Counted from the stretch's first letter, positions 11,007 to 29,210 are shown. The stretch is 41,625 nt of DNA from Bacteroidota bacterium (GCA_013298545.1 JAAFIA010000040.1:1-41625); one strand, 5' to 3'. Numbers and translations: made by a program. The notes: generated by a model from the letters alone, not told the origin.

Positions 11007-12317
11007 ATGCTGCGATTTATGAAACTACGCCTCCTCTTCTTTCTATTACTGTTTGCCGCCAATTCATACGCCCAAAATACGTGGCAAATTATGTTTGCTC
11101 CTGTATTCAGCAACCGTGTCGATGATCTGTTTATGGCAAGCCCCGATACGGGTTATGCCGTGAGCGGCGATGGACAAATTGTTAAAACCGTCAATGGGGG
11201 ATCAAACTGGTCTTTATTGACATTAAACAGCTCGGTATATTGCCGTTCGGTTGAATTTGTCAATCCGCAAATTGGGTTTGTGGGGGGCTTTCGCACCAAC
11301 CTGCAAATCGGTTCCAATATTTTACGCAAAACAAGCGATGGCGGTCAAACGTGGACGGACTTGACCAATCTCCTTCATCCAGTAGCGCAACAAGGCATTT
11401 GTGGACTTGCAGCGGCTGACGCGAATACCATTTATGGTTGCGGAAATTGGTACGAAGATTCGGCCTACATCGTCAAAACTACCGATCAAGGTGCTACTTG
11501 GTCATTTATTGACATGAGTATGTACGCCACTTCACTCATCGATCTGTATTTCATTAGTCCCGATACCGGATTTGCAACTGGAAAAGGCCCAATGCCGCTC
11601 GAAACTGCCGTTATTCTCTACACAACCGATGGCGGACAAACGTGGACTTATAAGTTTCAAAACACCTATTTCAGTGAGTTTTGCTGGAAAATATTCCCAC
11701 TTACCGATCAAATTATCTTTGCTTCGGTTGAAGAATGGCAGAATACGGGTGTTTCGCCGCAGATCTTAAAATCTATTGATGGCGGTATGAATTGGACAGT
11801 TTATCAGGTGCAACAAGCATCCTACAACATCGAAGGCATTGGATTCATCGACTCGCTGCATGGCTGGACGGGTGGCGATTGGAATTTCTCGTTTGAAACC
11901 GTTGATGGCGGACAAACTTGGGCACAAGTACCCATTTGCCCCATCATGAATCGGGTGTTTCGCATAAACGATTCTATTCTGTTTGCCAGCGGTTCTGAAA
12001 TTTGGCGGTACGCACCTCTCGGAACGGGTATTCGACCAACGCAACAAACGCCCATTCGGTATGTTTCGCTCAACTGCAATCCCAATCCAGTAAGTGATGT
12101 CTTGACCATTGACCTCAAACTCGAAAAATCGACCCAAGCACATCTTTCCCTGCTTGATGAGCAAGGACGACAAATTCGGCTCATCGACAATACCGTAAAA
12201 CCCAACGGAACATACCAATACAAGCTAGAAACAGCGCAACTTCCAGCAGGTATTTATTATGTTGTGATCAAGACCCACGAAGACAAAGCGAGTGCAAAAA
12301 TTGTGGTTACGCATTAA
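11007..12317 (+). CDS. T9SS-exported BNR-repeat (sialidase-like propeller) protein
   Basis: A 436-residue secreted protein. It starts with a signal peptide (LLFFLLLFAANSYAQ), followed by a seven-bladed-propeller-like region made of BNR/Asp-box repeats (TSDGGQTWTDL, TTDQGATWSFI, TTDGGQTWTYK, SIDGGMNWTVY, TVDGGQTWAQV), the YCF48/photosystem-II-stability-factor style. The last 80 residues are a type A T9SS sorting domain: NPNPVSDVLTIDL, then LLDEQGRQI, LPAGIYYVVIKT and a final KIVVTH. It is therefore probably cleaved and released or attached at the cell surface by T9SS. The start could also be ATG 11019; both leave the signal peptide intact. A weak TACATTTA box lies 16 nt upstream. Ligand or enzymatic activity is unknown; no catalytic sialidase residues were recognised. 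Confidence 0.88.
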   Translation: MLRFMKLRLLFFLLLFAANSYAQNTWQIMFAPVFSNRVDDLFMASPDTGYAVSGDGQIVKTVNGGSNWSLLTLNSSVYCRSVEFVNPQIGFVGGFRTNLQIGSNILRKTSDGGQTWTDLTNLLHPVAQQGICGLAAADANTIYGCGNWYEDSAYIVKTTDQGATWSFIDMSMYATSLIDLYFISPDTGFATGKGPMPLETAVILYTTDGGQTWTYKFQNTYFSEFCWKIFPLTDQIIFASVEEWQNTGVSPQILKSIDGGMNWTVYQVQQASYNIEGIGFIDSLHGWTGGDWNFSFETVDGGQTWAQVPICPIMNRVFRINDSILFASGSEIWRYAPLGTGIRPTQQTPIRYVSLNCNPNPVSDVLTIDLKLEKSTQAHLSLLDEQGRQIRLIDNTVKPNGTYQYKLETAQLPAGIYYVVIKTHEDKASAKIVVTH

Positions 12318-13545: not shown

Positions 13546-14844
13546 CTAATTCCGCGAACGCAATTGCCGCACGCCAATCAATTCTTCCGTCAAAGCACCC
13601 GGACTGCGGTGATACACATAGATCGTGTACATGTTCTCTGTTTCGGAATGCATGCCTTCCACTAAAAAATCGTCAGCCGCTTTTTCGCCATCTTTCAAAA
13701 ACACATATTCGTAATTGTAATAGCCTTGTTTTAAAAACAACGTCGCTTCATAGCCTTTGCGCTCGGCATTGTACGTCATGCGGTATTCTGGTCGGCATTG
13801 CCAATCGCTTAAGCCACCAAAGACATAGATATTGCCATCCTTTTCAGGAAAATCCCAAGGCAGAAAAAAATGCACGTACGCATAATCCGCATCCACATCA
13901 TGTGTCGAACCCTCAAACGTATGAATCAAAAAACGACCGTTAATGTCTTGCGAACTCGAATAGCGTTTAAACGCACGTTTCTCGTCGGGCAACATATACA
14001 CTTGTGTTGTTTTGCCCACAATTTCCATTTTCTGCACACGTTCTGCAGGTGTGCGCAAACTTCGGATATCACAAACACGAAATTCATTTCCCGCTTTAAA
14101 AACATTTCCATCTTCGTAATCATACACCAAATCCTGATCGCGCAGGAATTGTGGTTTTAGTCCAACCACCGCATTATCAGAACGCCCATTTTGTTGTACA
14201 ATCACGGTAAGCTCGGCAAACGGATTGGTAATGGATGAGCCTGAAGTATGAATCGTAAAATCGATTTCCTGTTTATAATTCCGATCACCAATGATGGTTG
14301 CCGCATGCGCTGTTCCATCAATCGTTACTTTCTCTTCGTAAATTCTGAAACGTTTGGTCAAGACTGGTTTTTCCGATGCACCTTCAGTATAAACACTCAA
14401 AATATAATTGCCCGATTTGCGCAATTTGAAATTCTCATTCGGAAATACAGCATTGTAGTGTGTGTACTGTTGAATCGTTCCGCGCGAAAGCCGATAATCG
14501 GTAATGGTTTGATCCGTAAACCCATCAATCACATCTGACTGCAAGATGTTTGACGGTTCCCAATTGATGGTACAATGAATGACGGTAAACTGATAGGTCT
14601 TCACATCGCCTTCCAAATCATCAAATCCCAAATACAATTGCTGATCGCCGCCCAAGGGAATAATCGGATCTGACAACCCTTCGAGCGCGGTACGCAACTG
14701 TACGCTCCGAATGGTACTCAAATACGTGCGATCATCGTACCGAATCGTACGATCTGTATAATAATCTGCCGTATCTGTTTGCGCCGCGAGTTGGAGCGAT
14801 TGAAATAAAAGAAAGAGAAAAAATAGTTTTCTGGAAATTTTCAT
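13546..14844 (-). CDS. Type IX secretion system plug protein (DUF5103)
   Basis: A 432-residue periplasmic/outer-membrane-associated protein. It begins with a signal peptide (LFFLFLLFQSLQLAAQ) and has the DUF5103 signatures TIRSVQL, PIIPLGGDQQLYLGFDDL, IHCTINWEPSNILQSD, FPNENFKLRKSGNY and YSSSQDINGRFL, plus a C-terminal YVFGGLSDWQ that looks like an immunoglobulin-like fold. In structural work on the T9SS translocon, a protein of this family plugs the periplasmic side of the SprA channel. That role here is by homology. It fits the presence of a T9SS substrate 1.2 kb away. A TACCTTTC near-match to the -7 box lies about 34 nt upstream. No other T9SS component is in the window. Confidence 0.88.
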   Translation of the reverse strand: MKISRKLFFLFLLFQSLQLAAQTDTADYYTDRTIRYDDRTYLSTIRSVQLRTALEGLSDPIIPLGGDQQLYLGFDDLEGDVKTYQFTVIHCTINWEPSNILQSDVIDGFTDQTITDYRLSRGTIQQYTHYNAVFPNENFKLRKSGNYILSVYTEGASEKPVLTKRFRIYEEKVTIDGTAHAATIIGDRNYKQEIDFTIHTSGSSITNPFAELTVIVQQNGRSDNAVVGLKPQFLRDQDLVYDYEDGNVFKAGNEFRVCDIRSLRTPAERVQKMEIVGKTTQVYMLPDEKRAFKRYSSSQDINGRFLIHTFEGSTHDVDADYAYVHFFLPWDFPEKDGNIYVFGGLSDWQCRPEYRMTYNAERKGYEATLFLKQGYYNYEYVFLKDGEKAADDFLVEGMHSETENMYTIYVYHRSPGALTEELIGVRQLRSRN

Positions 14845-19855: not shown

Positions 19856-20263
19856 CTACCCTAAATTCACCAACAACTGCTCAATCGCCTCTTTCCGGTG
19901 CAACGAATACGTGGTGCGATCCGTAGCCTCTAAATACCTGAAAATAGCCAACGCCTTCGCATAACGATCTGTCGCCAATTCGGGATGCTCTTCTTGCAAC
20001 AAATCGCCTTCCGTTTTAAAACCTTGCGCCAACATATCAAAATGCGCCAACGAAAAATCGGGACGCGTTTCTAGGGCCGCCACAATATTCTCCGGCGCTA
20101 TTTCATCAAAAAATTCTGCATTCAACTTAAAAAAATCGGTGTACGATTGCCGAATCAAGCGATACGCTTCGCCCGGCATATCGTCCTCACGCAAGCCTAG
20201 CGCCTTGCCCAGCATGCGAGCAAATTCCTCAATCATGTGCGTAATGTAATCGCGTTGAAACAT
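19856..20263 (-). CDS. Hypothetical helical protein (DUF6483-like N-terminus)
   Basis: A 135-residue, entirely helical cytosolic protein. It begins MFQRDYITHMIEEFARMLGK, which from memory resembles the start of DUF6483-type proteins; I cannot verify this. The remainder, with AYRLIRQSYTDFFKL, FDMLAQGFKTEGDLL and YAKALAIFRYLEA, resembles TPR-like helical pairs. It starts 5 nt after the stop of the upstream gene, so the two are co-transcribed from the TAGCTTTG promoter. Function unknown. Confidence 0.68.
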   Translation of the reverse strand: MFQRDYITHMIEEFARMLGKALGLREDDMPGEAYRLIRQSYTDFFKLNAEFFDEIAPENIVAALETRPDFSLAHFDMLAQGFKTEGDLLQEEHPELATDRYAKALAIFRYLEATDRTTYSLHRKEAIEQLLVNLG

Positions 20264-20268
20264 AGCCT

Positions 20269-20907
20269 TTAGCGTTGAACGAGGTACGGATTTTTGGTAA
20301 CCAAATGTTTTCTAAAACCAATCGTCGGCATCCCTTTGTCATGATCGCGCATACCAAACGGAATGTTTAAACCCACCGCAAATTTTGCCCCTTTCCGTCC
20401 TGCAACTTGTGCTGTCCCAACAGTCCAGTTATAGCCACCATACACGTACAAAATGCTGATGAAACACAAACCACCCTCGAGCGAAATCACGTTTGTTGCC
20501 TTACTTCCCTTCATATACCGCGCAAACGAAGTACGCGCGCCAATCAAAAGCAACTGCCCCTCAAAGCTGATTTTCGGAGCAAACGTATAAGCCGTATCGC
20601 CCAACGAAATTTCGCTACCAAGCCCAATCTGGCCCGATGTTGCAGAAATGCCAATCTGCTCATCAAAATCGTAGTAATTTTTCTGGTTGGCCCGCGATAG
20701 CATCAACTCCAAGCCATTCCCTTTAGCCTGACGCAAATAACCCGCCTTAAAATAAAAACCACGCTTCGTTTCCCAACGAAAATTTTCATCATCACGCACA
20801 TCCGTTACACTTCTTGTTTTCTCTGGCAAGCGTTGGAAACCTTGCAATTGCTGCGCTTGAGTAAGTTCTGAACAAAATAACAGCAGACCGACTAGGAATA
20901 ATTTCAT
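20269..20907 (-). CDS. Exported outer-membrane-like protein, hypothetical
   Basis: A 212-residue protein with a clear signal peptide (LFLVGLLLFCSELTQAQ). The mature part alternates short strands with aromatic ends (RGFYFKAGYLRQ, GLGSEISLG, ISILYVYGGYNW, KFAVGLNIPFG), suggesting a small beta-barrel or a beta-rich periplasmic protein. No family recognised. The frame is open to a TTG at 20937, but this TTG touches the TAGCTTTG promoter box, so ATG 20907, 27 nt downstream of the box, is the start. It is the first gene of a two-gene operon divergent from the large MORN operon. Confidence 0.7.
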   Translation of the reverse strand: MKLFLVGLLLFCSELTQAQQLQGFQRLPEKTRSVTDVRDDENFRWETKRGFYFKAGYLRQAKGNGLELMLSRANQKNYYDFDEQIGISATSGQIGLGSEISLGDTAYTFAPKISFEGQLLLIGARTSFARYMKGSKATNVISLEGGLCFISILYVYGGYNWTVGTAQVAGRKGAKFAVGLNIPFGMRDHDKGMPTIGFRKHLVTKNPYLVQR

Positions 20908-20934
20908 AAAGTCAAAAAAGGATTTTGGTTTCAA

Positions 20935-20942
20935 CAAAGCTA
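20935..20942 (-). promoter_or_regulatory. -7 box TAGCTTTG for the 20907-19856 operon
   Basis: TAnnTTTG match on the minus strand, 27 nt before ATG 20907. The divergent MORN operon has the same 27-nt spacing. Confidence 0.55.
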
Positions 20943-21128: not shown

Positions 21129-21136
21129 TACATTTG
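21129..21136 (+). promoter_or_regulatory. -7 box TACATTTG for the MORN/transglutaminase operon
   Basis: TAnnTTTG match 27 nt upstream of ATG 21164. It overlaps an upstream in-frame TTG (21134), which is therefore rejected as start. No second such box was noticed in the junctions of the following three genes. Confidence 0.6.
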
Positions 21137-21163: not shown

Positions 21164-24100
21164 ATGCTTCACAAAACGCTCTTTCTTCTTTTTACAATCG
21201 CGGTACTCGCCTGTGCGCCCCTGCATGCACAAAAAAATGTAGAATTAATTGATACCAAGGCAATCCTCGAAGAAGGCCAACAGCTTCAAGCTACTGGTCG
21301 TTTCGGAAAAGCCATTAACCTCTACAAACAAGTTTCGCGCAACGATAGCGCTTACGAAACCGTTATCTACCAACTCGCCATCTGTTACCTCGACGACGAT
21401 CAAGATAGCTTGGGCATGCTCACCGCACAAAAAGGCATCGAACTCAACGGCGATTACAATGGAATTTTCTATACGCTCAAAGGCATTGCGTATAAAAAAA
21501 TGGAACGTTACCCCGACGCGCTTAAAATTCTGAGCGATGGTATTGCCAAATATCCACGTCTGCCCAGCCTCAACCGCGTCAAAGGCGATGTGTATTTCAA
21601 AATGAAAAATTACAAAGATGCTGTGCCTTGCTACCAACGCACCATCGAACTCAACTTGTACGACGAAGAAGCACATTTCATGCTTGGCAAATGCTTGCTC
21701 GAACAAGGCCGTACCGTTCCCGCATTATTGACCTTTGAATTTTTCCTGCTCCTTGAAAATGGAACAGAACGCACCACCAAAGTCGTAACGCTCTGCGAAA
21801 ATTTATACACCGACGAGTACGAATTTGACCCCGACCAAAAAATGACCTCGCGCGAGGCGGGCGATCAAGTTTTTGATGATATTGCCGAACTCCTCAGTTC
21901 TAAAATTGGAAAAGCCCCTGGTTATAAAGACAAAACGGGACTGAATTTCAACCTCACCAAACAACGCCAGTTGATGATCGAAAAACTGCATTACGAAGCA
22001 GGAAGCGGAAACTGGTTTATGGAAAATTACGTTCCCTTTTTTACGGCCATTCAACAACAAGGACAACTTGTTCCTTACTCGCTTTATTCACTCGGAACAC
22101 TCAATGGCAAGAAAGTTCAAAAGGCCATCAAAAAGAAAAAACGCGCCATCAAAAGTTTTGCCGAATGGGCCGGAAAAAAATTAATCGAGATGCGTAAAAA
22201 TCGGGAAACACCGCTTTATGGCGATGCGAAAGGATTGCAACACCTCTATCACGAAAACAATGTGCTTGCCGCTTTGGGTAAAGAAAATGCCCAAGAGAAA
22301 CCAGTCGGCGAATGGACCTATTTTGAACGCCTCACCGGAAATAAAATCGGTGTAGCCAATTACAACAGCCTCGGCGAATTTGACGGTTTATTCGAACTTT
22401 TTTATGCTGATGGTACGCCCCAAGAACGCATCATGTATGCAAACGGCAAGAAAAATGGCCTCGCAAAATTTTGGTACGATAACGGAAATCCAAGTGCCGA
22501 AATCGAATTCAAAGACGATAAAGAAAACGGAAAATATGTAACCTACCTCTATTCCGGTCAAAAAGAATACGAAGGCAATTTTAAAGACGGAAAATTAGAC
22601 GGCCCATTCACCGCCTATTACAGCAACGGTACAAAAAGCACCGATGCCACGTACAAAGCAGGTAAGCTCGATGGCCAATTGACATCCTGGTTTGCCAACG
22701 GAACAAAATCGCGCGAAGCAGGCTACAAGGAAGAGAAAAAAGACGGTCCATTCATCAACTATTATGAGAATGGAAAACTCCAAGCTGAAGGCGCGTACAC
22801 CGCTGACGAAATGAGTGGTCCTTGGAAAACATATTTCAAAGATGGAAAGCTGAAAGAAGAAGGAACGTACAACACCAAGGGCAAAATCATTGGTACGTGG
22901 AAAGAATATTTCTACAACGGAAAACTCGAAGTAGAAAGCAATTACGATCAAGAAGGCTTGCGCCAAGGCGAAACCAATTTCTATGAAGACGATGGCACCA
23001 AAGTAACGCAGATGGATTTTGTAAAAGACCTGCCAGTACGTGTTCGCAATTTCAATGAAAAAGGTGAAGTTACCAACGATGAAAAAGCAAGTGGCAAACG
23101 TATCCGTGTTACAACCTATTGGTTTAACGGAAACAAACGGGCTAGCGGCGATTATTTCGATGGGAAAAAAGATGGCGAGTGGAATTATTATTCCATCCAC
23201 GGCGCACTCGAAACAACCGAAAATTTAGAAGCCGGCGAAGGCAATGGCAAACGCAAAGAATACTATTCAAACGGCCAACTGCAAAGCGATTGCAAACTCA
23301 AAAAAGGCGAGTACGACGGCTACTTTAAATCGTACTACGTCAATGGTAAAATTGAATCGGAAGGTTGGTATGTCAAAGATCAACGCGAAGGTGCTTGGTA
23401 TTCTTATAGTGAATCGGGACAAGTTGCCGCTTACCGTTTCTATAAGGAAGGCGAACTTGAAGGACATACCGAATTTTATGATGCGTATGAAAATATTGTA
23501 GAAGACCGCCTCTATAAAAACAAAATCATGATACGCTCCATCGAGCAAGATAGCTCGGGCAAAATTGTTTACGATTTCAATACCAAGGATGGATCTGGTG
23601 CTTTCTTGTGGAATCATACCAACGGAAAGGTTTACCAAGACATTACCTACAAAAGCGGAAACTTTGAAGGGCCACGCACCAGCGGACATTTCAATGGCAA
23701 CAAAGCTTTTACTGGATCGTATGTTATGGGTTATTCACACGGCCCATACACCAATTATTTCGACAATGGAAAAGTTCAATCCGAAGGAACATACGTCCTC
23801 GGCGATTTAGATGGTCTGCGCAAAGATTACTGGGAAAACGGAAAACTCAAACACGAAGCCAACTACATCCTTGGCGAAGATCATGGTACGTTTAAATACT
23901 ATTTCGACAATGGTCAACTCGAACGCGAAGGGCAATACGTTTGGGGACAAGCCGAAGGCGAATTCCGCTATTACGCTCGCGATGGTGCGCTGGTCGGCGT
24001 ACGTTGGTATCGCCACGATTATTTAGTCGCTTATTCTTATCCTGGCAAAGACGGCAAACTCGTGGAGAAAAAAACACTCAAAGCCGATGGCAATGGCGAT

Positions 24101-24487
24101 ACACTTTTCAGCTATTACCCCAATGGGCAATTGGCCGTCAAAGCCGTTTACAAATACGGCAAACTCGATGGCAAACGTTACGAGTATTTTGCAGATGGTA
24201 AACTTGCCGAAGAAGAAAATTATATTGCTGGCGACCTCGATGGTCCACAGAAATACTTCTATGCAAACGGCAATCCCAAGGCCGAAATCAATATGGTTAT
24301 TGATGCTGAAAACGGTGTGCAAAAAACGTATTTCGAAAACGGAAAAATCAAAAGCGAATGGTTCTCGATTTGTGATGAATACTACGGCGATTTCAAAACA
24401 TACAATTACGATAAAGGTGCTACACCAACCATCACGGTGAGCAAATTTTACAATGACATTTGTTTCGCTCAAACAACAACCAAATAA
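21164..24487 (+). CDS. Giant exported TPR and MORN-2 (YwqK-type) repeat protein
   Basis: A 1107-residue secreted or periplasmic protein. Signal peptide: TLFLLFTIAVLACAPLHAQ. Residues about 35-200 are TPR-like (FGKAINLYKQVSRND, YPDALKILSDGIAKYP, YKDAVPCYQRTIELN). About 200-380 is a helical linker. From about 385 to the end run more than 20 MORN-2 repeats of 20-25 residues with consensus YY-NG-L--EG-Y--G--DG (examples: YYSNGQLQSDCKLKKGEYDG, YFDNGKVQSEGTYVLGDLDG). Automatic pipelines may label such repeats as YwqK-family antitoxin; the export signal and size make that label unlikely. It is the first gene of a four-gene operon; its TAA overlaps the next ATG (TAATG). It has no T9SS sorting domain. 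A scaffold or binding role is inferred from the repeats only. Confidence 0.9.
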   Translation: MLHKTLFLLFTIAVLACAPLHAQKNVELIDTKAILEEGQQLQATGRFGKAINLYKQVSRNDSAYETVIYQLAICYLDDDQDSLGMLTAQKGIELNGDYNGIFYTLKGIAYKKMERYPDALKILSDGIAKYPRLPSLNRVKGDVYFKMKNYKDAVPCYQRTIELNLYDEEAHFMLGKCLLEQGRTVPALLTFEFFLLLENGTERTTKVVTLCENLYTDEYEFDPDQKMTSREAGDQVFDDIAELLSSKIGKAPGYKDKTGLNFNLTKQRQLMIEKLHYEAGSGNWFMENYVPFFTAIQQQGQLVPYSLYSLGTLNGKKVQKAIKKKKRAIKSFAEWAGKKLIEMRKNRETPLYGDAKGLQHLYHENNVLAALGKENAQEKPVGEWTYFERLTGNKIGVANYNSLGEFDGLFELFYADGTPQERIMYANGKKNGLAKFWYDNGNPSAEIEFKDDKENGKYVTYLYSGQKEYEGNFKDGKLDGPFTAYYSNGTKSTDATYKAGKLDGQLTSWFANGTKSREAGYKEEKKDGPFINYYENGKLQAEGAYTADEMSGPWKTYFKDGKLKEEGTYNTKGKIIGTWKEYFYNGKLEVESNYDQEGLRQGETNFYEDDGTKVTQMDFVKDLPVRVRNFNEKGEVTNDEKASGKRIRVTTYWFNGNKRASGDYFDGKKDGEWNYYSIHGALETTENLEAGEGNGKRKEYYSNGQLQSDCKLKKGEYDGYFKSYYVNGKIESEGWYVKDQREGAWYSYSESGQVAAYRFYKEGELEGHTEFYDAYENIVEDRLYKNKIMIRSIEQDSSGKIVYDFNTKDGSGAFLWNHTNGKVYQDITYKSGNFEGPRTSGHFNGNKAFTGSYVMGYSHGPYTNYFDNGKVQSEGTYVLGDLDGLRKDYWENGKLKHEANYILGEDHGTFKYYFDNGQLEREGQYVWGQAEGEFRYYARDGALVGVRWYRHDYLVAYSYPGKDGKLVEKKTLKADGNGDTLFSYYPNGQLAVKAVYKYGKLDGKRYEYFADGKLAEEENYIAGDLDGPQKYFYANGNPKAEINMVIDAENGVQKTYFENGKIKSEWFSICDEYYGDFKTYNYDKGATPTITVSKFYNDICFAQTTTK

Positions 24488-26439
24488 TGCTGCGTAAGAA
24501 TTTATTTTTTTTCGTTTGTGGTCTTTCTTCCGTAGCCTTTGCACAAAAAGAAGATTTAACCGAGTCGTATGCCAAACGTTATCCGGGTGAGAACTCCGTT
24601 TTTGTTGCCAAAACAGAAAGCCACACGATTAAAATTGAGCGCAACGAGCCTGTCATTTATTCGGAGAACCACGAAGACATTTTGATCCTCAGCGATAAAA
24701 TGTCAACGTACTCCGACCGCAACATTTATTTTTCTTCGTTTACCGAAATCACGCGCATCGATGCGTTCACCCTTTATCCCGACGGAAAAGGGGGCTACAA
24801 AACCGACCGCGCCGAAAAATTGGGCATTACCAATGAGTTTGCTTCCGGCTCGTTTTACGACGATTACCGCGCACAACATGTTGGTTTTGGCAACATCCAA
24901 CGCGGCAGCCGCATGGTGCTCAATTACACCGAAAAATTAAACGAAGCGCGTTTCTTTGGTCGTTTCTTTTTCAACGCCTCCATCCCAACCGAGTATTCCG
25001 AATTTTCGGTACTCGTTCCCAAAGGCGTAAAAATCATTACCAAACTTTTTGGTATTGCCGAAAAAGACTTAACCATCAACCAAACAAAAGTTGGAAACGC
25101 CATCAAATACAGTTGGCGCGCACAGAATCCGAAACGCTACAAAGCCGAAGACGATGGCCCCACCATCAGTTATTTCGCGCCACACATTGTTGTGTACATC
25201 ACCGAATTTACCGACCAGAGCGGCAATGTTGTCAAACTCCTCAATGGTACAGACGGACTTTATGATTGGTATTACAGCATGGTGTCGGGTGTCGGGAAAA
25301 AAGAAAGTCCAAGCCTCCAAAAATTAGTTGACTCGCTTGTGGCTGGCGAAACCGATGAGTTTAAAAAAGTAACCAAGATTTTTTATTGGGTACAAGACAA
25401 CATCAAGTACGTGGCTTTTGAAGACGGTATGGGCGGTTTTGTGCCACGCGAAGCCGCCGACGTTTGCGACCGCCGCTATGGCGATTGCAAAGACATGGGC
25501 AATATTATTGTTACCATGCTCCGCCTCGCCAAAATTCCGGCATACATTACGTGGATTGGTACGCGAAACATCCCATACACGTACGATCAAGTGCCTTCGC
25601 CCATGTCGGACAACCACATGATTGCAACGTATGTCAAAGACAGCACGTATTGGTTTCTCGATGCCACCGGAAAAAATGCACCAATTGGTATGCACACATC
25701 CATGATTCAAGGCAAAGAAGCGTTGCTTGCTTGGAACGACAATGAATACAAAGTAGTGCGTGTTCCCATTATTCCCAAAGAACAAAATACCCGCGTTGAT
25801 TCCGTAATCATGTATGCCGATTTGAGTGCCGAAAACGCTTCTGGTGTTTCGTTATATGGAACAGGATTTTCGACCATTCGTGGGTACGAAAAAATTCACC
25901 TCACCTACCCGCTCGATGCGATGAACGAGCTAGATAAATTGAAGTTTTTTGTCAGTTATTTGGAGAAAGGAAACAATACGTTTGGCGTTGATTCTTTGCA
26001 TTACTTCAATTTGTATGATCGTTCTAAAAACTTAGAAATCGATTACACCTTTCGCATTGACGATTATGTGCGGCGCAATGGCAATGAAATGTATGTCAAT
26101 TTCAACATCGACAAATCATTTCAAAACCGCTTGCTCGATACCGAAAAACGACAAGCTCCACTCGAAATAGATTACCTCAACACCGAGCGTCATGTAACCG
26201 TCATGCAAATACCAGCGGGTTGGACCGTTGGGTATATGCCGCCCAACGCATCGTATAACGGAACTGATTTTGGTTTTACCATTTCGTACAAACAAGTTGG
26301 CGATCGTATTTACTGCGAACGCACCATTTACATCAATACGCTTTTGGTGAAGCCAGAGCAATTTGAAACGTGGAATAAATTCATCAAACTTTTAGGCAAA
26401 GCCTATACCGAAACGGTTATCATTAAGAAAAAAGTATAA
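24487..26439 (+). CDS. Exported DUF3857/transglutaminase-like protein, intact triad
   Basis: A 650-residue protein with signal peptide (NLFFFVCGLSSVAFAQ). Residues about 40-250 are the DUF3857 beta domain (RNEPVIYSENHEDILILSDK, GSRMVLNYTEKLNEARFFGR). A transglutaminase-like core follows at about 280-400 with the full triad: C334 in RYGDCKDMG, H377 in SDNHMIA and D392 in WFLDATGK. The C-terminal 230 residues are beta-rich (DUF2569-like or similar; not identified). The fold can act as a cysteine protease, amidase or cross-linker; the substrate is unknown. The start ATG 24487 overlaps the stop of the MORN gene, giving tight coupling, and removes the nine-residue extension read from a further upstream ATG in the open frame. 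Confidence 0.88.
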   Translation: MLRKNLFFFVCGLSSVAFAQKEDLTESYAKRYPGENSVFVAKTESHTIKIERNEPVIYSENHEDILILSDKMSTYSDRNIYFSSFTEITRIDAFTLYPDGKGGYKTDRAEKLGITNEFASGSFYDDYRAQHVGFGNIQRGSRMVLNYTEKLNEARFFGRFFFNASIPTEYSEFSVLVPKGVKIITKLFGIAEKDLTINQTKVGNAIKYSWRAQNPKRYKAEDDGPTISYFAPHIVVYITEFTDQSGNVVKLLNGTDGLYDWYYSMVSGVGKKESPSLQKLVDSLVAGETDEFKKVTKIFYWVQDNIKYVAFEDGMGGFVPREAADVCDRRYGDCKDMGNIIVTMLRLAKIPAYITWIGTRNIPYTYDQVPSPMSDNHMIATYVKDSTYWFLDATGKNAPIGMHTSMIQGKEALLAWNDNEYKVVRVPIIPKEQNTRVDSVIMYADLSAENASGVSLYGTGFSTIRGYEKIHLTYPLDAMNELDKLKFFVSYLEKGNNTFGVDSLHYFNLYDRSKNLEIDYTFRIDDYVRRNGNEMYVNFNIDKSFQNRLLDTEKRQAPLEIDYLNTERHVTVMQIPAGWTVGYMPPNASYNGTDFGFTISYKQVGDRIYCERTIYINTLLVKPEQFETWNKFIKLLGKAYTETVIIKKKV

Positions 26440-26462
26440 TTCATCCGTATTCTCCCTTGACT

Positions 26463-28451
26463 ATGTCCTTTTCTAAAAAAATATTTCTTCTGCTTGCTTT
26501 GGTGAGCGCGTCTTTTCTTCAAGCGCAAACACGTGCGGCTATACCCGAATACAAAAAATACGATTGGGAAGAAGAACCCAAACGCGATAGCCTTTCTGCC
26601 GAAGAAGAAAAGCAAGGTGCGGTTATCATCAAAGACAAACGCCTCGTAGAATACTATTTTGAAACGGCAGAAAACATTGTCATTTTTTCTACGCGCCACA
26701 TGGTTGTGCGCGTCAATACCGATGCGGCCATTGAACAATACAACAAAGTCTATATTCCCATGACCAACGTATTGGGAACCGTCAACATTCAAGCGCGCAC
26801 CATTTCTAAAAGCGGAAAAATCACCAACCTTCCCGAATCGGCCATCAAAGAAGTACCCAATTACGAAGATCGCGGCCCTTACAAAATTTTCGCACTCGAA
26901 GGTCTTGAAGTAGGCGGGCAATTGGAATACCTCTATACCTTAAAAAAAACATTTACACGCTACAGTTCCGAATCATTTCGCAGCGAATTTAATTACCGCA
27001 AAATTGAATTCAGTTTGTTTGCACCTTCGCATTTGGCGTTTGAAGTTAAGGGCTACAATGGATTGCCCGAAGCCAAAGAAGATGACGACAACGACACGAA
27101 GTTCGAGATCAACCTCAATGCCGAAAGCATCAAAGGATTTGAATCGGAGAAATACTCCAATGGCGACGCTGCTTATCCTAAAATTTTGTACGTCTGGCGT
27201 TACAATACGTCTAGTTCAAAATCAACGCGCTTACACACATGGAAAAATGCCGCCGATCTTTTTTACCAATCGATTTATACCGTTACCTCAAAAGAGAAAC
27301 GCAAAGCACAAGCTTTTTACAAACGCATTGGTGTAAAAACAACCATGAGCGACGAAGAAAAAATACGTCGCATTGAAAGCTATGTTAAAAACAACATCAT
27401 TGTTCGCGAAGAATTTGTTGGCGATCAGTTTGTAAAAATCGACGGTATTGTAAAAACGCGTTATGCCAACGAAACGGGTGTGATGCGTTTGTACAATTTA
27501 CTTTTTGAATTTGCCGGAATCAAACGCGAAATTGTACTCACCAGCGACCGCTTTGATCGGCCTTTTGATGGCGATTTTGAAACCTATTCCTATTTGCAAC
27601 ACTTTTTATATTATTTCCCCACCACCGGAAAATTCATTGCTCCAGGCGAATTATTTTACCGCTACGGGTACGCACCTGCCGATTGGATGTATCAAGATGG
27701 TTTGTTCATTCGTCCAGTCATTCTCGACGGGTATTCTTCGGGCATAGGTTCTATCAAAAAAATCACTGGACCGGAAGCCCGTCAAAACAGCAATAATTTA
27801 TACGCAAACGTTCGCTTCGATCTCGATCTGGGTGAAAGTAAATTGCATGTCAAACACCAATTTACAGGCTTTTACGCCCTAGGCTACCAACCAATTTACG
27901 CTTACCTCAATCAAGAAAAACAAGATGAATTGGTGCGTGAAATTGCCAAAAATGGCGCAAAAGATGCCGACCCCAAAAACATCACCGTAACGGGTAAAGG
28001 CGGTGAAGACACGCTTTACCAACATCCATTTACCGTAGAAGCCGATTTAACCACAACCAGTTTCTTAGAGAAAGCGGGCGATAAGTACATTTTCAAAATC
28101 GGTGAAATCATTGGGCCACAAGCCGAGCTTTATCAGAAATCGGAGCGACGTACACCGGTTGAATTGTACTATCCACATACCTTTCACCGCGAGCTTGTGT
28201 TTACGGTTCCTGACGGTTATAAAGTAACCAACCTCGAAGCTTTGAAAATTGATATTTTCCGTGCAGAGAATGATCAACGCACACTCGAATTTAAAAGTTC
28301 CTACACACAAGAAGGAAATACGGTAACCGTGATTATTGATGAATTGTACGGCAATACATATTACGACAAATCGGTTTACGAAGACTTCCGAAAAGTCATC
28401 AATGCCTCAGCCGATTTCAATAAAGTAACCTTGTTTTTCGAGAAAATCTAA
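26463..28451 (+). CDS. DUF3857 protein with degenerate transglutaminase domain (pseudoenzyme)
   Basis: A 662-residue paralogue of the preceding protein, also exported (KKIFLLLALVSASFLQAQ). The DUF3857 domain is present (EYYFETAENIVIFSTRHMVVRVNTD-like strands; SKSGKITNLPESAIKEVPNYED). In the region aligned to the catalytic core, RYGDCKD of the neighbour is RYANETG here: the nucleophilic Cys is Glu337, and the expected His and Asp segments read YSYLQHFLYYF and FIAPGELFYRYG without the DNHM and LDATG motifs. It is thus predicted inactive and may bind or regulate its neighbour or substrate. It starts 23 nt after that gene. Start ATG 26463 was preferred to TTG 26457. Confidence 0.82.
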   Translation: MSFSKKIFLLLALVSASFLQAQTRAAIPEYKKYDWEEEPKRDSLSAEEEKQGAVIIKDKRLVEYYFETAENIVIFSTRHMVVRVNTDAAIEQYNKVYIPMTNVLGTVNIQARTISKSGKITNLPESAIKEVPNYEDRGPYKIFALEGLEVGGQLEYLYTLKKTFTRYSSESFRSEFNYRKIEFSLFAPSHLAFEVKGYNGLPEAKEDDDNDTKFEINLNAESIKGFESEKYSNGDAAYPKILYVWRYNTSSSKSTRLHTWKNAADLFYQSIYTVTSKEKRKAQAFYKRIGVKTTMSDEEKIRRIESYVKNNIIVREEFVGDQFVKIDGIVKTRYANETGVMRLYNLLFEFAGIKREIVLTSDRFDRPFDGDFETYSYLQHFLYYFPTTGKFIAPGELFYRYGYAPADWMYQDGLFIRPVILDGYSSGIGSIKKITGPEARQNSNNLYANVRFDLDLGESKLHVKHQFTGFYALGYQPIYAYLNQEKQDELVREIAKNGAKDADPKNITVTGKGGEDTLYQHPFTVEADLTTTSFLEKAGDKYIFKIGEIIGPQAELYQKSERRTPVELYYPHTFHRELVFTVPDGYKVTNLEALKIDIFRAENDQRTLEFKSSYTQEGNTVTVIIDELYGNTYYDKSVYEDFRKVINASADFNKVTLFFEKI

Positions 28452-28466
28452 GCTACACAAACGCGT

Positions 28467-29210
28467 ATGGTAAAATTTGGAAAATGGTTGGGCGGCGGAC
28501 TGGGCTGGGCATTGGGCGGTCCACTAGGCGCGTTGATTGGGTTTGCGGTTGGTTCGGTTTTCGACTCAGCAGAAATTTCGGTATCGCGCAGTACCATCGG
28601 TGAAAATATTGGCTACAATCCGCAAACCGCTGCGGGCGATTTTGCGGCTAGTCTGCTGGCCCTCTCAGCCGCCGTCATGGAAAGCGATGGCAAAGTATTG
28701 CGTTCCGAATTGGATTATGTCAAACGCTTTCTCGTGGTACAGTTTGGCGAAGCCAACGCACAAAAACTCTTGCCTGTTTTAAAAGATTTATTGGCACGCG
28801 ATATTCCCGTTGCCGAAATCTGCAAACAGATTCGCCTCTACATGCCCGAAGCGCAACGCCTGCAATTGTTGCAATACTTATTTGGAATTGCGCAAGCCGA
28901 TGGGCATGTGGATGAACGCGAAGAGAAACTCATTGCTAGTATTGCAAGCAATCTCGGTGTTTCGCAAACCGAATACGAATCCATTCGCGCTGTTTATTGG
29001 CGCGATACGGAAAGCGATTATAAAATTTTGGAGATCCTTCCTACGGCGAGTGATGAGGAAGTGAAGAAAGCGCACCGCAAAATGGTGATGAAATACCATC
29101 CCGATCGCGTGGCTGATTTAGGAGAAGCGGCACAAAAAGCCGCGCATGAACAATTTCAACACATTCAAGAAGCTTTTGAAAACATCCGCAAAACACGCGG
29201 ATTTGCTTAA
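28467..29210 (+). CDS. DjlA-like protein: membrane anchor, TerB and J domain
   Basis: A 247-residue co-chaperone-like protein. The N-terminus is a glycine-zipper membrane segment (GGGLGWALGGPLGALIGFAVG), the middle (about 55-170) is a TerB-like helical domain with the acidic motif SDGKVLRSELDYVKRF and ADGHVDEREEKLI, and the C-terminus (about 178-245) is a J domain with YKILEILPTASDEEVKKAHRKM and the HPD tripeptide in KYHPDRVA. This order is that of DjlA, an inner-membrane DnaK partner. It starts 15 nt after the pseudo-transglutaminase gene, suggesting the same operon, although a cytosolic J domain would not contact the exported proteins directly. Confidence 0.88.
   Translation: MVKFGKWLGGGLGWALGGPLGALIGFAVGSVFDSAEISVSRSTIGENIGYNPQTAAGDFAASLLALSAAVMESDGKVLRSELDYVKRFLVVQFGEANAQKLLPVLKDLLARDIPVAEICKQIRLYMPEAQRLQLLQYLFGIAQADGHVDEREEKLIASIASNLGVSQTEYESIRAVYWRDTESDYKILEILPTASDEEVKKAHRKMVMKYHPDRVADLGEAAQKAAHEQFQHIQEAFENIRKTRGFA

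Follow-up and report, generated by a model that had tools for sequence, protein, structure and literature searches.

A conserved three-gene cassette of Bacteroidota joins a transglutaminase-fold enzyme to a degenerate paralogue and, often, a TPR-MORN repeat protein

Four closely spaced genes on a Bacteroidota contig encode a very large repeat protein, a transglutaminase-fold enzyme, a relative of that enzyme without its catalytic cysteine, and a DjlA-like protein. An initial annotation made from the sequence alone read them as one operon for a periplasmic or surface assembly, which raises two questions: which of the four genes belong together, and what might such a set do? We followed these questions through the gene neighbourhood, domain content, structure models and distribution of the four families. 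Throughout, the window is the whole stretch of DNA that was analysed, an entire contig of 41,625 nucleotides (GCA_013298545.1 JAAFIA010000040.1:1-41625) from a genome of 4.53 Mb over 154 contigs.

Gene organization and predicted location

All four genes lie on the plus strand, with gene A at 21164–24487 (1107 aa), gene B at 24487–26439 (650 aa), gene C at 26463–28451 (662 aa) and gene D at 28467–29210 (247 aa). A and B have one base in common (TAATG), B and C are separated by 23 nt, and C and D by 15 nt. Coordinates and Pfam matches agree in full with the arrangement, spacing and domains first described for the four genes. The promoter proposed upstream of A fared less well. The candidate, TACATTTG (21129–21136, plus strand), is a consensus match only to the Bacteroidota -7 box (TAnnTTTG). 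This motif is frequent on both strands of the window (19 on the plus strand, 18 on the minus strand). It stands 5′ of A at 7 of 53 loci, where shuffling predicts 3.8, so a promoter at this site is not established.

Two genes 5′ of A, encoding proteins of 135 and 222 aa (19856–20937), are on the opposite strand in the window but run in the same direction as A in relatives from the genus, as a local inversion might explain. The window also contains a T9SS plug domain protein (13546–14844) and a protein that has BNR repeats and a T9SS sorting tail (11007–12317; Por_Secre_tail, Pfam); on the strength of these two proteins, type IX secretion appears to be present in the organism.

The export signals that had been read on the products of A, B and C recur among their homologs. 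A hydrophobic N-terminal segment was scored, by a heuristic rather than a trained predictor, in 52 of 56 copies of A, 81 of 86 of B and 74 of 76 of C, and by the same heuristic most of these signal-like segments end in ...AQ. Lipoprotein sorting was considered and rejected, with lipoboxes in three or fewer sequences per family. A domain-library search found no T9SS sorting tail in A, B or C, using the same Pfam library that detects the tail at 11007–12317. The predicted location of the three proteins is most likely the periplasm, with the cell surface as second option.

A transglutaminase-fold enzyme and its degenerate paralogue

B is built from a signal segment, a DUF3857 domain (PF12969; 2.1e-12, 47.8 bits against a curated cut-off of 24.6), a transglutaminase core (Transglut_core, PF01841; 2.6e-9, 37.8 bits against a curated cut-off of 23) and a DUF3858-like C-terminal domain, where PF12970 matches at the expected place with 21.6 bits, below its curated cut-off of 27. 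The intact Cys-His-Asp core reported for this protein is confirmed: Cys334 (codon 25486–25488, plus strand; motif YGDCKDM), His377 (25615–25617, plus strand) and Asp392 (25660–25662, plus strand) are identical in 71 of 71 sequences, and the core has the highest mean conservation of the B domains (0.65). With both the domain and the residues of the transglutaminase-like superfamily in place, B is a member of that superfamily carrying a complete predicted triad.

C consists of a signal segment, DUF3857, a degenerate transglutaminase-like core and a C-terminal domain that is its most conserved part. Pfam recognizes DUF3857 only (2.8e-11; 44.2 bits against a curated cut-off of 24.6), and C aligns with B over 604 columns at 15% identity (hhalign probability 99.8, E 1.5e-29). 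At the position of the catalytic cysteine of B, C has Glu337 (codon 27471–27473, plus strand), with YANETG replacing YGDCKD. Among its copies this position is mostly Glu, otherwise Lys, Asp, Ser or other residues, and no His or Asp is conserved at the positions aligned with the His and Asp of B; the window's C has zero cysteines in the whole protein. The third gene had been described as a related core without the cysteine, and the loss proves to go beyond that claim, to all three triad positions. C is thus a full-length paralogue of B in which homology and overall fold are retained and the triad is lost, in contrast to typical members of PF01841. Mean conservation is lowest in its core (0.48) and rises to 0.62 in the final 128 aa. 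A core that is the least conserved part and a C-terminal end that is the most conserved form the pattern of a pseudoenzyme retained for structure or binding.

The structure model of C (pLDDT 93.3, pTM 0.88) has its best match in PDB entry 3kd4, with Z 19.9 over 475 of 505 residues at about 14–15% sequence identity. This entry is BDI_1141 of Parabacteroides distasonis, a putative protease with DUF3857, a transglutaminase core and DUF3858 in the same order as in B and C, and by sequence it is the single solved relative of both. No partner or function of BDI_1141 is described in the literature searched. M1 aminopeptidases and ribophorin I also have a first domain similar to the N-terminal domain of C (Z about 10–11); a fold shared in this way does not on its own imply a function.

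Repeat protein A and the question of cross-linking

A begins with a signal segment, followed by TPRs at about residues 30–215, a helical linker at 216–345 that is without a Pfam match, and MORN_2-type beta-hairpins at 346–1106. Pfam detects the TPRs and MORN_2 (2.7e-57; 184.4 bits against a curated cut-off of 29.6), and the structure model (pLDDT 91.3, pTM 0.80) resolves TPR domain, linker and about 31 hairpins, in keeping with the more than 20 MORN-2 repeats counted earlier after the TPRs. The TPR part is nearest to TPR proteins such as BamD (Z 15–16), and the hairpin array of the model shows local resemblance to MORN1 structures. The repeat family is common to A and other MORN_2 proteins (PF07661; YwqK), from which A differs by its extra TPR domain and helical linker, its near-fixed size of some 1100 aa and its place before B. 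The LIC20035 family adhesin model (NF033566) matches A in part, with 121.8 bits, and its cut-off of 250 is not reached. The 51 full-length copies span 1073–1123 aa despite an identity of 23–36% to the window's A, which suggests that the length of the array matters.

A long and lysine-rich protein (10.1% Lys in the window) encoded next to an enzyme with Transglut_core and a full triad invites the reading that B is a true transglutaminase and cross-links proteins of the envelope or surface, for which A would be the scaffold or substrate and C a guide. The sequence of A offers no obvious cross-link site, however: no conserved Lys was found among the copies compared, and conserved Gln is confined to Q267 and to Q23, which falls in the region of signal cleavage. 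This makes A less likely to be a substrate that is cross-linked at specific sites. Microbial transglutaminase-fold proteins are, moreover, mostly regarded as proteases. The nearest solved relative, 3kd4, is labelled a protease as well, although this label is weak because a structural-genomics entry received it as a putative name. We therefore regard cross-linking as unlikely, and B-C as more likely to be a hydrolase, as far as sequence comparison can tell.

Conservation and co-retention of A, B and C

We assembled a sample of 86 loci from the best 80 of a B-profile scan of named genomes (33–47% identity; wherever a name is given, Bacteroidota, save for one evidently mislabelled MAG), the window, and five relatives from a whole-genome search. 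Of the 83 loci with enough sequence, 81 have C 3′ of B in the same orientation; A is just 5′ of B in 54 of 76. Most loci have overlapping or almost abutting ends of A and B, and gaps between B and C are mostly below 100 nt. As the sample had been picked for resemblance to B and 24 loci come from Hymenobacter, the question was repeated on 296 class genomes drawn evenly. A was detected in 47 of these genomes, B in 67 and a strong C in 55. Every one of the 55 genomes with a strong C also has B, against an expectation of 12.4 (p 2e-48, a value that ignores kinship), and 42 of the 47 with A hold both B and C, where about 9–11 would be expected. Among 296 phylum genomes C was present in 11, one of these outside the class.

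The A-B-C order recurs in many families across the phylum, mostly in single copies, and this is more than chance would give. The initial annotation had made its proposal depend on a neighbourhood conserved beyond close relatives; such conservation was found, for a unit of three genes (A, B and C) rather than four. Distances on the A, B and C trees are correlated as well (0.91–0.96), which we set aside as evidence because shared descent explains it.

B and C were always together in the genomes checked, including those in which they are not adjacent. In three genomes (G053, G219 and G254) they lie on different contigs, away from contig ends, and both are retained. Two loci with B but no adjacent C (L113 and L047) and three B loci whose 3′ side could not be judged come from five genomes that all have C elsewhere. 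Since both genes are retained when unlinked, operon membership alone is insufficient to explain the association, which points to B-C as an obligate functional pair. A second kind of active/inactive pair, here called B′-C′, places a DUF3857 paralogue after an active-like enzyme resembling B and occurs in G023, G181, G126 and G009; such pairs lie at L031 449–4648, L132 335–4370, L134 5201–9291 and L033 2778–6772. C′, at about 700–740 aa, is far more divergent than C (19% identity for the one aligned), no A gene accompanies the pair, and the neighbours vary (a DUF5916 protein, a TonB-dependent receptor, PEP carboxylase).

The bond between A and the other two genes is looser. Four genomes of the window's genus (G001, G004, G006 and G003; loci L121–L124) have a full-length A at 33–37% identity, and neither B, C nor any other DUF3857 protein was found in them; a single-sequence B search in the genus gave no match, and the A profile then revealed A alone. 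G187 likewise has A without B and C. There are also 21 clean loci with B-C and no A; a search of 21 such genomes yielded no full-length A at other positions. On the B tree, at least 12 switches between presence and absence of A are counted. A without B-C, together with B-C without A, makes A a frequent but not obligate partner. The window's A is nearest to the same-genus copies in the tree, on long branches; loss of B-C from between A and D in those relatives is the simplest account, and gain in the window's lineage a less simple one.

These separate occurrences of A and of B-C are what one would expect if B-C were the real two-gene system and A an independent repeat protein sharing its operon. 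Against such independence, A is directly 5′ of B in 42 of 42 class genomes that have both, the two co-occur in 42 of the 296 class genomes where 10.6 would be expected (p 7e-28, again ignoring kinship), and their ends frequently overlap. An A that merely shares the operon is, in our judgement, improbable.

Some individual loci deserve comment. A MAG labelled Bifidobacterium breve (L048) carries a typical Bacteroidota B-C pair and is probably mislabelled or contaminated. In G285 (L131) the frames of A and C are each in two pieces and B is intact, through decay or sequencing error. A seeming A-B fusion in G257 (L130; an open frame of 1749 aa) was rejected as the artefact of an N run; this run is about the size of A (about 3.3 kb) and sits 5′ of B, directly before it, so that the locus is uninformative on whether A is present. 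Hymenobacter loci (e.g. L049, L051 and L055) have an apparent ECF sigma factor, recognized by eye in one cluster member; in 19 loci of Hymenobacter an ECF-like gene shares the strand of the cassette and lies less than 6 kb 5′ of it, a possible regulatory lead. Recurrent extra neighbours are nearly all found within single genera, mainly Hymenobacter.

The DjlA-like neighbour and less probable readings

Pfam places TerB and DnaJ domains in D, in DjlA order, and the DjlA model NF006948 scores 104.4 bits without reaching its curated cut-off of 162. The small gap between C and D in the window and the position of D directly 3′ of A in three of the four same-genus genomes (L122–L124; 60–63% identity, with B and C missing) would suit a single operon and a single system of four genes, DjlA-like chaperone included. 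Yet of 71 testable loci, the window's is the only one in which D adjoins A-B-C, and its N-terminal membrane segment, by analogy with DjlA, likely leaves it facing the cytoplasm. The four-gene set was rejected as a conserved unit, and a four-gene system seems to us very unlikely; D is a neighbour within the genus, outside the conserved A-B-C cassette.

Least probable is a polymorphic toxin or toxin-antitoxin system, which could appeal to the occurrence of transglutaminase folds among toxins, to the frequent naming of MORN_2 proteins as YwqK family antitoxins and to a local resemblance between the A array and Rhs/teneurin YD repeats (Foldseek, 3Di; E down to 1e-17), but is opposed by a whole-chain comparison in which no similarity to Rhs shells was seen (TM 0.09), by PADLOC matches that are marginal only, by an A that looks exported, by near-fixed lengths with no variable C-terminus and by the single copies seen over many families. 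As to an origin in mobile elements, no match was found on mobilizable plasmids; two short, unannotated records labelled phage did match, one of which covers 95% of B at 24% identity.

Proposed function

We propose that A, B and C form an exported set in which B is the active enzyme, C its dead partner and A a scaffold or rod, and we rate the chances of this proposal as even. It builds on the observed gene order, its conservation, the triad retained in B and lost in C, and the co-retention of B and C; the three genes would be expected to share a transcript. B would be the only catalytic part, a cysteine enzyme and most likely a peptidase or amidase that works in the periplasm or at the cell surface and attacks peptide bonds or side-chain amides. 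C would pair with B, most likely as a heterodimer formed through the N- and C-terminal beta domains, and may hold, activate or restrain it. A, encoded just before B, would most likely serve as a scaffold or measuring rod that brings the B-C pair to its substrate or to an envelope structure. Gene adjacency can also reflect shared regulation without binding.

The earlier proposal thus survives for an exported set of active enzyme, inactive paralogue and, usually, repeat protein, and falls for the DjlA-like member and the promoter. More tentatively, and with somewhat more doubt than belief, we hypothesize that an obligate heterodimer of active and dead subunits sits on a fixed-length TPR-MORN rod and builds or processes an envelope or surface structure, which would make it an undescribed extracytoplasmic machine.

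Implications

Pairs of an enzyme and a pseudoenzyme are familiar from eukaryotes and less common in bacterial envelopes. The domain families of A, B and C are all known, and it is their conserved combination that appears to be undescribed. Neither this combination nor the strict pairing of active and dead proteins was found in the open-access literature, an earlier mention elsewhere being possible, and nothing in the description of PF01841 joins its members to a DUF3857 pseudoenzyme and a MORN protein. A DUF3857 gene is a neighbour of lolA in Xanthomonas (PMC6341742), the one mention of this domain in the literature searched.

Many environmental Bacteroidota keep the A-B-C cassette, with its genes usually side by side and A often present. 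That B and C are strictly retained together across much of the phylum, even where they are unlinked, makes them a directly testable pair. DUF3857 proteins and long exported MORN_2 proteins, whose names are uninformative or misleading, would thereby gain a first functional context.
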